A program made the position numbers and the translations under genes. From Lachnospiraceae bacterium (GTDB lineage: Bacteria > Bacillota > Clostridia > Lachnospirales > Lachnospiraceae): a stretch of 61,625 nucleotides of DNA. Positions 5,744 through 9,739 of this stretch are shown piece by piece. The notes under the pieces were generated by a model. It was given only the letters and a program-made list of their open reading frames with translations, searched no databases and had not been told where the DNA came from. Position 1 is the first letter of the stretch, and each line of letters starts with the position of its first letter. The DNA lies in contig JALFIB010000113.1 of assembly GCA_022776305.1 (NCBI GenBank), forward strand, positions 1-61,625, in the 5' to 3' direction.

Positions 5744-5795
5744 AGCACCCTGCAGATGCTACAGATACAAGAATCCGCAGACTGCAGGGTATTTT
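5744..5795. terminator. Bidirectional terminator between helicase and DUF1292 genes
   Basis: ACCCTGCAG (5747-5755) pairs with CTGCAGGGT (5782-5790). An A-run precedes the stem and ATTTTG follows it, so it can stop transcription from either of the converging genes. Confidence 0.7.
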
Positions 5796-5812
5796 GTCAT
5801 AGTAACGATATC

Positions 5813-6163
5813 TTATTCTTCTTCCTCAGCCGGAACAAGTTCGTCGTATTCCATGGAATCAAGCCACTCGTCAAAGCCGTCAGAAGCTGCCTCGTATTCC
5901 TCATCGTCTTCGATATTTTCAAGGACAGGCACACCGTTTTCTTCATGGAAACGGTAAATAAATACTTCGCCATCTTCATTCACACCCTGTTCATTCAGGG
6001 GAAGCAGTGCAATATAACTGTTGCCGGCTGCTTCATATACCGTAAGGATAGAGCATTCGATGGTCTCGTCATTGTCCAGTGTCAGTGTGATGGTAGCGCC
6101 GCCTGCGCCGCAGTCTTCGCCGCAGCTTGCGCAGTTTCCGCCGCAATTCTCAAAATCGCTCAT
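5813..6163 (-). CDS. DUF1292 family protein with N-terminal cysteine cluster
   Basis: The ORF opens at 6220, but the start at 6163 (MSDFENCGGNC) is chosen because TAAGAGAGGT lies 7 bases before it; this gives 116 residues. Residues ~25-75 (TITLTLDNDETIECSILTVY, then YIALLPL and FIYRFHEE) match DUF1292, a small beta-rich family of unknown function common in Firmicutes. Ahead of it is a cluster of four cysteines, CGGNCASCGEDC, which could bind metal. The C-terminus is very acidic. It stands alone, convergent with the helicase gene. Function unknown. Confidence 0.82.
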   Translation of the reverse strand: MSDFENCGGNCASCGEDCGAGGATITLTLDNDETIECSILTVYEAAGNSYIALLPLNEQGVNEDGEVFIYRFHEENGVPVLENIEDDEEYEAASDGFDEWLDSMEYDELVPAEEEE

Positions 6164-6466
6164 TTGCAGTACCTCTCTTATTTTGTATAATGTTGTGTCA
6201 AAAGATGCCATAGGAATCATCTTGTGCTCGTACTCTTAGAATCCCGGCATCCTTTGATCAGCATGTAAATGATGCTGTTTCTTACACTTTACCAGAATAT
6301 ACATGAATTGGCAAGCAAGATATAAAAAAGACAAGATTATGCTGTGAAAACGTGAAAAGAAATGGTATACTATTATTGGATTTTTATGCTTGGCATTTAA
6401 AATGATGTTATGGTTAAAAGGCGCCAAAGCAGTGTTACAATCACGAAAAAGAATTGGAGTTAAGAT
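6164..6466. other. 303-base intergenic stretch between diverging genes
   Basis: The stretch is AT-rich and separates the DUF1292 gene (leaving leftward) from exoA (leaving rightward). Apart from the candidate exoA promoter I see no gene, repeat or clear RNA structure. The minus ORF 6236-6538 runs into the exoA start and has no supporting feature. Confidence 0.6.
6343..6371 (+). promoter_or_regulatory. Candidate extended -10 promoter for exoA
   Basis: TATACT (6366-6371) is preceded by TGG, giving an extended -10 (TGnTATACT). The -35 position (TGTGAA) is poor, which is usual for extended -10 promoters. Confidence 0.45.
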
Positions 6467-7225
6467 ATGAAACTGATTTCTTGGAATGTAAATGGTCTTC
6501 GGGCATGTGTACAAAAAGGTTTTCTTGATTTCTTCCATGATTCAGATGCTGATATTTTTTGTATTCAGGAGACGAAGCTTCAGGAAGGACAGATCGACCT
6601 GAAGATGGAAGGATATGAGCAGTATTGGAATTACGCTAAGAAAAAAGGATATTCAGGGACAGCGGTATTTACAAAGAAAAAGCCCCTGTCTGTGACTTAC
6701 GGTTTGGGAATAGAAGAGCATGATCAGGAAGGTCGTGTGATCACCTTGGAGTTTGAGGAATTTTATTTCGTGACGGTGTACACTCCCAATTCCCAGAATG
6801 AGCTGGCACGTCTTGATTACAGGATGCAGTGGGAGGACGATTTCCTGTCATACTTAAAAAAACTGGAAGAAAAGAAACCTGTGGTATTCTGTGGGGATTT
6901 AAATGTCGCCCATAAGGAGATCGACCTGAAAAATCCTAAGACAAATAGGCGGAATGCCGGTTTTACAGACGAAGAGCGGGAAAAGTTTACGCAGCTTTTG
7001 GAACATGGGTTTATAGATACATTTCGGTATTTTTATCCGGATCAGGAAGGTATTTACAGCTGGTGGTCTTACCGGTTCCGCGCCAGAGAGAAGAATGCGG
7101 GGTGGCGTATTGACTACTTCTGTGTTTCAGAAGTGCTCAGGGAGAAACTGGAGGACGCGAAGATCCATACAGAGATTTTCGGTTCAGACCATTGTCCGGT
7201 AGAACTTGATCTATCAATTTCATAA
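6467..7225 (+). CDS. exoA: Exodeoxyribonuclease III (AP endonuclease)
   Basis: A 252-residue exonuclease III family protein. It opens [13 protein letters not shown], and has QETK with the metal-binding Glu at 35, GDLN with Asp144 and Asn146, and the C-terminal SDHCPV with the catalytic His. All key residues are present. It cuts DNA 5' of abasic sites and removes 3' blocking groups in base excision repair. TTGGAG lies upstream of the ATG. The following GH13-like gene begins 26 bases later and is probably co-transcribed. Confidence 0.95.
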
Positions 7226-7251: not shown

Positions 7252-9150
7252 ATGAGGCAGAGTTTGGAAGAAAATAGGTTCAAGGTAACAGAAGAGAATA
7301 TTGGGGTACAGGGAACAAGGATAGGAAAAGAGGGAGTGCACTTCGGATATACCGGAAGCAGTGAGGTGCCCCCCGTATTGCTGCTATATAAAAAAGGGAC
7401 ATCGGAAATTGCGGAGGAGATCCCTTTTCCTAAGGCAGCTTTAGGGGATCATTTTTATTCCATGACAGTAAAATTCTCCCCTTCAGAATATGAGTACAAT
7501 TTCCGGGATGGGGATATGATCATAACAGACCCGTATGCAAAAAAAATTTGCGGAAGGGAAATATTTGGGCAGGAGCCCTCTGAAGATCCCCATAGCCTTC
7601 GCGGAGGTTTTGTTTCGACGAAGTATAAGTGGGAGGATGATGTACTTCCACACATCCCTTATGAGGACGCTGTTATGTACCAGCTTCATCTCCGCGGGTT
7701 TACGATGCAGAAAAATTCCGGGGTGAGGAAGAAAGGGACATTTGCAGGATTAAAAGAAAAAATCCCCTATTTGGCAGAGCTGGGCATCAATCAAGTAAAA
7801 TTGCTGCCGGTATACGATTTCAATGAGATGGTGCCCAAAATGGTGCGGCAGAGGCCTTTGTCGATGGGGCAAGGTTCAAACATCATAGGCAAGAAGGGGG
7901 AACTTCCACCTTCCGGCGGATTAAAGGATCAGTATAAATTGAATTTCTGGGGGTACGGAGGCGGTTTCTATTTTGCCCCGAAAGCCTCTTACGCTTCCAC
8001 GCAAAATCCCGATATAGAGTTTAAGGACATGGTAAAATCTTTCCATTCCAACGGGATAGAGGTCATTTTAGAGTTTTCTTTTGAGGAAAATACAGATATA
8101 CAGATGATTTCCGACTGCCTTACATACTGGGCGAAGGAGTACCATGTAGATGGATTTTCTGTGATCGCACGGGAGAGTGTTCTCTCGGAGTTGGCCAGAC
8201 TTCCACTCTTTAGGACAAGAAAACTCATTGCAAACTGGTATCAGAATTCCGTGAAAAGCTGGAATAAAGAAAAGGGACATGCACTTTTGGCCGAATCAAA
8301 CGACGGATTTATGAATGATTGCAGGAAGGCTTTAAAAGGCGATGAAGACTGTTTAAGTGCATTTAGCCATCAGATCCGAAGCCGTGGCTCAGGGTGCGCG
8401 AAGATTTCTTATATGACCAACCATGACGGTTTTACCATGATGGACCTAGTTTCCTATGACAGGAAGCACAATCTGGATAACGGGGAACAGGACAGGGATG
8501 GAACGGAATACAATTTAAGCTGGAATTGCGGTCTTGAAGGACCTTCAAAAAAGAAAGAAATCGTATCCCTTCGCATGCGCCAAAGGAAAAACGCTTACGC
8601 TATAATGTTGTTTTCACAAGGTACACCAATGCTTTTAGCAGGAGATGAATTGGGCAATTCCCAGAATGGAAATAATAACCCTTATTGCCATGACAACAAA
8701 TTGTCCTGGGTGGACTGGAGCGGAAAAAAGAGGAATGAAGAGCTTCTCCAGTTTGTAAAGCAGGCCATCGCTTATCGGAAATCCCACAAGGTTTTCCATC
8801 AGGAGCGGGAATTAAAATGTGCAGACCAGCTTTCCACCGGTTTTCCGGATTTGTCTTTCCATGGGGACCGCGCCTGGTACGGGGATTTCGAAAAGCCAAA
8901 CAGGCATCTGGGATGTATGTATGCTAGCCAATATGTAGGAGAACGGGGCTTTGTATATGTGGCCTACAATTTCCATTGGAATCCTCAGGAGTTTGCGCTT
9001 CCTTTGTTGCCTAAAGGGGAGAACTGGTATAAAGTGATGGATACATCATTAAAAGATAGCTTTATTGATACGCCATCACAGGAAAAAATGCAGGATGTGA
9101 AATCTTTTACAGTCCCTGCGAGAACAATCGTGATTTTGGAAGGAAAATAA
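7252..9150 (+). CDS. GH13 glycogen-debranching-like protein with degenerate active site
   Basis: A 632-residue protein of the GlgX/isoamylase branch of family GH13. The N-terminal ~120 residues resemble the beta-sandwich (CBM48-like) domain, followed by a barrel, with typical C-terminal segments such as LFSQGTPMLLAGDELG and NNNPYCHDNKLSW. The catalytic regions are altered. Region I reads ILEFSFEEN where D-x-x-x-N-H is expected. Region II reads DGFSVIA (300-306) for DGFRFDL, losing the Arg and the nucleophile Asp. Region III reads LIANW with Asn328 for the acid Glu. Region IV keeps His391-Asp392. Hydrolysis is therefore unlikely. The nearest ribosome site (AGGAAAGG) is 17 bases from the ATG. 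Confidence 0.85.
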   Translation: MRQSLEENRFKVTEENIGVQGTRIGKEGVHFGYTGSSEVPPVLLLYKKGTSEIAEEIPFPKAALGDHFYSMTVKFSPSEYEYNFRDGDMIITDPYAKKICGREIFGQEPSEDPHSLRGGFVSTKYKWEDDVLPHIPYEDAVMYQLHLRGFTMQKNSGVRKKGTFAGLKEKIPYLAELGINQVKLLPVYDFNEMVPKMVRQRPLSMGQGSNIIGKKGELPPSGGLKDQYKLNFWGYGGGFYFAPKASYASTQNPDIEFKDMVKSFHSNGIEVILEFSFEENTDIQMISDCLTYWAKEYHVDGFSVIARESVLSELARLPLFRTRKLIANWYQNSVKSWNKEKGHALLAESNDGFMNDCRKALKGDEDCLSAFSHQIRSRGSGCAKISYMTNHDGFTMMDLVSYDRKHNLDNGEQDRDGTEYNLSWNCGLEGPSKKKEIVSLRMRQRKNAYAIMLFSQGTPMLLAGDELGNSQNGNNNPYCHDNKLSWVDWSGKKRNEELLQFVKQAIAYRKSHKVFHQERELKCADQLSTGFPDLSFHGDRAWYGDFEKPNRHLGCMYASQYVGERGFVYVAYNFHWNPQEFALPLLPKGENWYKVMDTSLKDSFIDTPSQEKMQDVKSFTVPARTIVILEGK

Positions 9151-9151
9151 C

Positions 9152-9739
9152 ATGAAATTGGCTGGACAGATAAGAATGATTACTTGGAAAAAAATAAAAG
9201 GCCATTTAAAGACGATTACGGAACACAAGCTTCTGGTGATGCGCCATTGTTTTAAAATCGGACTGTATAGGCAGGGGATCATGCATGACCTGTCAAAGTA
9301 TATGCCGTCGGAGCTTTTGATGGGATTTATGTATTATGATGATGGAAAAAGCAGCCCCAATAACGGCGAGAGAAGGGATAAGGGGTATTCGAATGCATGG
9401 ATGCACCACAAAGGACGCAACAGGCACCACTTTGAATACTGGACAGATTACTCTCTCCATCCGTCAGAGGCAAAGCACCCTTTGCAGGCAGTGGAAATGC
9501 CGCGCAAATACGTTGCGGAGATGCTGATGGACCGCATCTGTGCTTCCAAAAATTATAATAAAGAATCCTACACGCAGCATGATCCACTTTCTTATTTTGA
9601 ACACGGGAAAAGCCATTACCTTCTCCATCCCCAGACAGAAAAAGAACTCCACGGGATGCTGAGGATGCTGGACCAAAAAGGGGAGGAATACTTGTTTCAT
9701 TTTGTGAAAGAGTATTACCTGAAAGGTTACAAGATATAA
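9152..9739 (+). CDS. DUF5662 family protein
   Basis: A 195-residue soluble protein rich in His, Tyr and Met. Conserved-looking patches are HKLLVMRHCFK, HDLSKY and WMHHKGRNRHHFEYW. These match the family I know as DUF5662, sometimes misnamed catalase. The H...HD...H spacing is reminiscent of metal-dependent HD-type hydrolases, but that is only a resemblance. The start is one base after the GH13-like stop, with GGAAGG inside that gene's end, so the two are translationally coupled. No enzymatic role can be stated. Confidence 0.72.
   Translation: MKLAGQIRMITWKKIKGHLKTITEHKLLVMRHCFKIGLYRQGIMHDLSKYMPSELLMGFMYYDDGKSSPNNGERRDKGYSNAWMHHKGRNRHHFEYWTDYSLHPSEAKHPLQAVEMPRKYVAEMLMDRICASKNYNKESYTQHDPLSYFEHGKSHYLLHPQTEKELHGMLRMLDQKGEEYLFHFVKEYYLKGYKI

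Follow-up and report, generated by a model that had tools for sequence, protein, structure and literature searches.

A Lachnospiraceae clade of GlgX-like proteins lacking the GH13 catalytic residues, with a possible non-catalytic role in glycogen metabolism

The Lachnospiraceae, which rank with the most abundant bacteria of the human gut, possess genes for glycogen storage. The closest described systems for the GlgX-like protein analysed here are bacterial GlgX and archaeal TreX (GH13_11), with which it shares the fold, the domain order, the GNNN-Y-C-D and N-x-x-N loops and the WGY platform. In the S. venezuelae GlgX-acarbose complex the ligand is contacted by Trp222, Tyr224, His271, Asp342, Glu378, Trp380 and His449, while Arg212, Glu470, Asn534 and Tyr536 provide outer contacts (PMC9530166). 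Plant ISA2, the partner of ISA1, is an isoamylase-type protein that has lost its catalytic residues lineage-wide and is kept under selection; it is non-catalytic yet alters polyglucan structure (PMC12510319). In the rBAT and 4F2hc ectodomains, too, a GH13 barrel has been turned to a non-enzymatic use, although they belong to another GH13 subfamily and are animal membrane proteins with a transporter function (PMC8537225). Within the glycogen metabolism of gut bacteria, GlgD beside GlgC is a non-catalytic paralogue, but its fold and step are unrelated and it is described as a subunit working with a catalytic partner (PMC10395257). Some species in a survey of gut commensals were recorded with two homologues of glgX (PMC10395257). 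Our searches of open-access literature yielded no description of an inactive GlgX clade in bacteria, nor of a pseudo-GlgX that is both family-wide and stand-alone.

Catalytic residues of the GlgX-like protein

The window, as we call the whole stretch of DNA analysed, comprises 61,625 nucleotides from a Lachnospiraceae bacterium (assembly GCA_022776305.1, contig JALFIB010000113.1, positions 1 to 61,625 of the forward strand). On its plus strand, on which all features of the protein lie, the open reading frame 7252–9150 encodes a GlgX/isoamylase-like protein of 632 residues, hereafter P0001. Its translation is stop-free, in keeping with the intact frame of 632 codons reported in the initial annotation; the start may lie a few codons 3' of position 7252, as relatives begin near residue 5. 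The resemblance to GlgX and isoamylase noted at that stage is borne out by TIGR02100 and by PDB matches to isoamylase, GlgX and TreX in sequence and fold. The TIGR02100 match is strong (E=6e-95), yet its 318.7 bits are half of the curated cut-off of 640.9 (NCBIfam). By sequence, the nearest PDB entry is the isoamylase 4j7r (E=1e-67). The Pfam GH13 model barely matches P0001; the homology to GH13_11 runs over the whole length, both by sequence and by fold. An N-terminal β-sandwich (residues ~11–119; 7282–7608), delineated from the secondary structure and confidence of an AlphaFold model, occupies the position that a CBM48-like domain has in GlgX, and a Pfam search of P0001 returned no CBM48 match.

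At regions I to IV, the canonical GlgX encoded in this genome (L002) has the sequences VVFNHTAE, VDGFRFDLA, VKLIAEAW and TCHDGFT. In the translation and alignment of P0001, region I is ILEFSFEEN (residues 272–280; 8065–8091), with the catalytic-site His replaced, region II is VDGFSVI (residues 299–305; 8146–8166), with Ser303 for the Arg and Ile305 for the nucleophile Asp, and region III is KLIANWY (residues 324–330; 8221–8241), with Asn328 for the acid/base Glu. Only His391-Asp392 of region IV (8422–8427) are present, and this pair is lost in about half of the relatives (His is kept in 60/102, Asp in 50/102). Each of these residue calls had been made initially, and each is found as stated. 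A further feature, not listed at that time, is a deletion in which the loop joining regions I and II has been lost: ~30 residues are absent from P0001 at the junction 8092–8103, corresponding to columns ~273–303 of L002.

To place these replacements in a wider set, residues were tallied in a single alignment of 102 distinct homologues, gathered from related genomes, GTDB contigs and 40 further genera, together with 60 canonical GlgX proteins. The full catalytic triad, made up of the Asp nucleophile, the Glu acid/base and the Asp of region IV, is present in none of the 102 homologues versus 60/60 canonical GlgX, a loss far beyond chance. No carboxylate of the triad is left in 41 of the homologues, one is left in 60 (mostly the region IV Asp) and two in a single protein; the nucleophile Asp occurs in 2/102 and the acid Glu in 10/102, never both together. 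The region I His is found in 0/102, and the region I–II loop is gapped in 102/102. Within the clade, the acid-Glu column outranks only 14% of columns in conservation and the nucleophile column 23%. Judged by its residues, the GlgX-like clade is close to shown to be non-catalytic for GH13 chemistry, which upholds the original view of P0001 as a pseudoenzyme with regard to the GH13 mechanism.

We considered whether the protein could instead be a cryptic enzyme that cleaves or transfers glucan by means of other residues and so replaces a missing debrancher. Five acidic residues, D398, E412, D416, E429 and D525, are nearly invariant in the clade, as such an activity would lead one to expect. However, most of the conserved acids of the clade are also conserved in active GlgX, which marks them as structural, and the 102-homologue alignment contains no clade-specific conserved acid at the β-4 or β-5 catalytic positions. 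A shift of the catalytic residues to another part of the barrel, which the initial annotation had named as a possible refutation, was rejected on this basis and because nucleophile and acid never occur together. We regard a cryptic activity as very unlikely.

Predicted fold and retained glucan contacts

The AlphaFold model of P0001 (pLDDT 86, pTM 0.88) finds its best Foldseek matches in the PDB among rice and Arabidopsis ISA1/ISA2, Streptomyces GlgX and TreX. In sequence, P0001 matches ISA1 at E values of 1e-64 to 1e-65 and ISA2 at 1e-32 to 1e-35. When residue numbers are transferred by offsets that hold at the catalytic positions (the mapping is not a superposition, and Arg212 was left out), the non-catalytic glucan contacts of S. 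venezuelae GlgX are 87–100% retained in the 102 homologues. The WGY motif (residues 233–235; 7948–7956) supplies the Trp and Tyr whose counterparts in GlgX touch glucan at subsite -1 (PMC9530166), and W233 is kept in 102/102 and Y235 in 99/102 proteins. E412 is kept in 99/102, N476 in 102/102, and position 478 is Tyr or Trp in 102/102. In conservation, the columns of W233, Y235, E412, N476 and Y478 rank above 85–100% of the columns of the clade. N476 and Y478, which match GlgX glucan contacts, lie in the motif GNNNPYCHD (residues 473–481; 8668–8694), whose three central Asn residues and D481 are found in all 102 proteins. The residues N407, N410, E412, D416, N425 and E429 cluster in an invariant loop spanning residues 400–429 (8449–8538). 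This loop and that formed by residues 470–485 hold many of the invariant residues and are modelled with low confidence, so that the cleft may not be pre-formed; a ligand or a partner may order these loops.

The clade also has near-invariant residues of its own, namely N231, K244, D525, P532, S535 and W542. Four of them, D525, P532, S535 and W542, constitute a C-terminal signature (8824–8877) that is 99–100% conserved in the clade and unconserved in canonical GlgX. Glycan binding by P0001 is plausible from the retained contacts. The remaining cleft would hold α-1,4-glucan chains through the Trp and Tyr of the WGY platform together with two invariant loops, GNNN-Y and N-x-E, and the C-terminal surface carrying D525, S535 and W542 may be the site of a partner or effector.

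Selection, distribution and glycogen genes

The catalytic-less proteins form one clade in the tree (support 100) beside clostridial GlgX, with GlgX/TreX as its sister clade; GlgX/TreX differ from it in the intact triad, the region I His and the region I–II loop, all missing from the 102 members. The clade was unchanged when the columns of regions I–III and IV were removed and a mixture model was used, and convergence or a long-branch artefact was rejected on that result. Its position beside clostridial GlgX, in a tree that does not include ISA2, and the closer sequence match to ISA1 than to ISA2 make shared descent with plant ISA2 less likely and suggest an apparently independent origin. By Nei-Gojobori estimation, dN/dS is ~0.08–0.15 in pairs with moderate dS and about 0.10 in the closest pairs, compared with about 0.01–0.09 for pairs of canonical GlgX, which indicates purifying selection somewhat weaker than that on GlgX.

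Full-length single matches to the clade profile (E<1e-150, only such matches being counted) were obtained in at least 205 of 299 genomes, whose assignment to Lachnospiraceae is inferred, the named relatives being nearly all Lachnospiraceae; shorter members of about 570 residues are present in further genomes. Most sampled Lachnospiraceae genera are represented. No member was found in about 213 genomes of the same order and 375 of the same class belonging to other families, in which we obtained only canonical-type matches that are split at the loop. The clade is ancient and of single origin and, as far as these searches reach, restricted to Lachnospiraceae. The original judgement that the gene is maintained rather than decaying is sustained by the single clade, its presence in most sampled genera and the purifying selection across relatives. 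The loss of the catalytic residues and of the loop would also be expected of a decaying pseudogene or an assembly artefact, but intact open reading frames in about 100 independent genomes, which form one clade with dN/dS about 0.1, refute this and leave it a negligible probability.

The search for a second, intact debranching enzyme, suggested in the initial annotation, revealed one GlgX in the window's genome (G000:C110). We surveyed glycogen genes in 80 selected genomes. Among those with both types in a first scan, a real GlgX was confirmed in 20/20 (E about 1e-190). Among those with only the non-catalytic gene (about 99% complete), 36/36 have no GlgX over the TIGR02100 family cut-off; in each, the best TIGR02100 match is the non-catalytic gene itself (E 1e-41 to 1e-77). 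All 80 genomes carry GlgA and GlgP, with or without the non-catalytic gene, so that this co-occurrence gives no tie to glycogen. GlgB occurs in 40 of the 41 genomes checked. Type I pullulanase and GDE_C are both absent, as is GlgX, from 25 of the 36 genomes (e.g. G161, G182, G204, G329 and G340), all of which possess GlgA, GlgB and GlgP. The distance between GlgB and the GlgX-like gene varies: they lie about 5–11 kb apart in three genera (G193:C21, G178:C7, G351:C4) and far apart in complete genomes, for instance G161, G329 and G340.

These distributions bear on two of the alternatives. Like ISA2, the protein could be a regulatory subunit that joins the cell's canonical GlgX in a heteromer and tunes its activity. 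The ISA2 precedent (PMC12510319), the ISA1/ISA2 complexes among the top fold matches and the presence of both proteins in the window's genome and in the 20 genomes with two types are consistent with such an arrangement. The 36 GlgX-free genomes, however, exclude an obligate GlgX subunit and leave a facultative one, so that we consider this reading unlikely as a whole; frequent occurrence without any catalytic paralogue is also a difference from plant ISA2. The cryptic enzyme discussed above could draw on the 25 genomes in which GlgA, GlgB and GlgP occur but GlgX, type I pullulanase and GDE_C are all missing. Yet a further 8 genomes with GlgA, GlgB and GlgP have neither the non-catalytic gene nor any of the three debranchers, which indicates that a missing debrancher is tolerated and that the non-catalytic gene is not simply a substitute.

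The protein, kept under selection and often in genomes without GlgX, probably has a non-enzymatic task such as binding or organising glycogen. The best-supported function, which we hold with about even confidence, is to bind glucan and to act in glycogen metabolism as a scaffold or regulator, a role that would fall to an ancient non-catalytic clade of GlgX paralogues. Debranching chemistry would have been lost in the clade and the protein retained for a non-catalytic role other than that of an obligate GlgX subunit: it might tether GlgP, GlgB or GlgA to the glycogen particle, or mask chain ends. More tentatively, P0001 could be a glycogen-organising pseudo-debrancher, a family-wide bacterial counterpart of ISA2 that is independent of a catalytic paralogue, has outlived GlgX in many Lachnospiraceae and persists in genomes with GlgA, GlgB and GlgP and no known debrancher; this specific proposal is possible rather than probable. 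A gene of this kind is easily taken for glgX by homology alone, so that genome surveys may credit a bacterium with a debranching enzyme that it does not encode. Two testable questions follow. One is by what means glycogen loses its branches where GlgA, GlgB and GlgP are encoded without a recognised debrancher; the other is what role a stand-alone non-catalytic isoamylase has, a problem that is also open for plant ISA2.

Gene neighbourhood and DUF5662

The GlgX-like gene is part of a widely shared block in the order gltX, UvrD helicase, DUF1292 (minus strand), xth, GlgX-like gene, DUF5662, luxS and trpS. In the window, the exodeoxyribonuclease III gene xth (6467–7225, plus strand; TIGR00633) lies upstream and is conserved in the close clade, and the DUF1292 gene (5813–6220; PF06949, E=3.4e-20) is kept on the minus strand in 61 loci. 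A plus-strand frame at 5756–6190 has no family match and appears to be a shadow of the DUF1292 gene. Downstream, the DUF5662 protein of 195 residues (9152–9739, plus strand; PF18907, E=1.8e-35) is the same-strand neighbour in 62/93 loci and thus a frequent operon mate; its start lies 1 nt past the GlgX-like stop (TAA c ATG), and in 55/93 loci it lies within 100 nt downstream or overlaps. The translational coupling to DUF5662 proposed initially is supported in the window and in these 55 loci. However, much of the linkage is plain synteny of the shared block, and other lineages have TraX-like or Ogt partners. DUF5662 was found in 69/80 genomes, including some without the non-catalytic gene, and some genomes with that gene have no DUF5662; an obligate partnership was rejected for this reason.

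At nine loci (L065, L156, L159, L162, L164, L165, L178, L179 and L181) a membrane protein of ~236 residues, called TraX-like from sequence resemblance, replaces DUF5662 downstream, often with a start/stop overlap. In four Lachnospiraceae genera the GlgX-like frame runs stop-free into a complete O6-methylguanine-DNA methyltransferase (Ogt; PF02870 and PF01035, with the PCHR motif), giving open frames of 793–883 residues (L182, 6027–8675, plus; L197, 692–3130, plus; L198, 654–3065, minus; L200, 590–2968, minus).

These DUF5662, TraX-like and Ogt partners and fusions do not point to glycogen, and at the loci examined no glycogen gene adjoins the GlgX-like gene. The fold could have been recruited to bind a different ligand or partner outside glycogen metabolism, for example together with DUF5662, DNA-repair or envelope proteins, as the neighbouring xth, UvrD-type helicase, DUF1292, DUF5662 and luxS genes, the TraX-like loci and the Ogt fusions would suggest. 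Against this, the partners vary by lineage, the upstream block is ordinary synteny and the invariant residues are those that contact glucan in GlgX. We therefore judge a function outside glycogen rather doubtful, and continue to favour the glucan-binding scaffold or regulator.

For DUF5662 itself, we found no paper in the open-access literature searched. Its model has a pLDDT of 91 and gave no significant fold match in the PDB, HD-type matches having E values above 6. The DUF5662 core is almost invariant and rich in His and Asp (H18, H25, H45-D46, H85-H86, H92-H93 and D127-R128), and within it the motif formed by H45-D46 and D127 resembles that of HD hydrolases.
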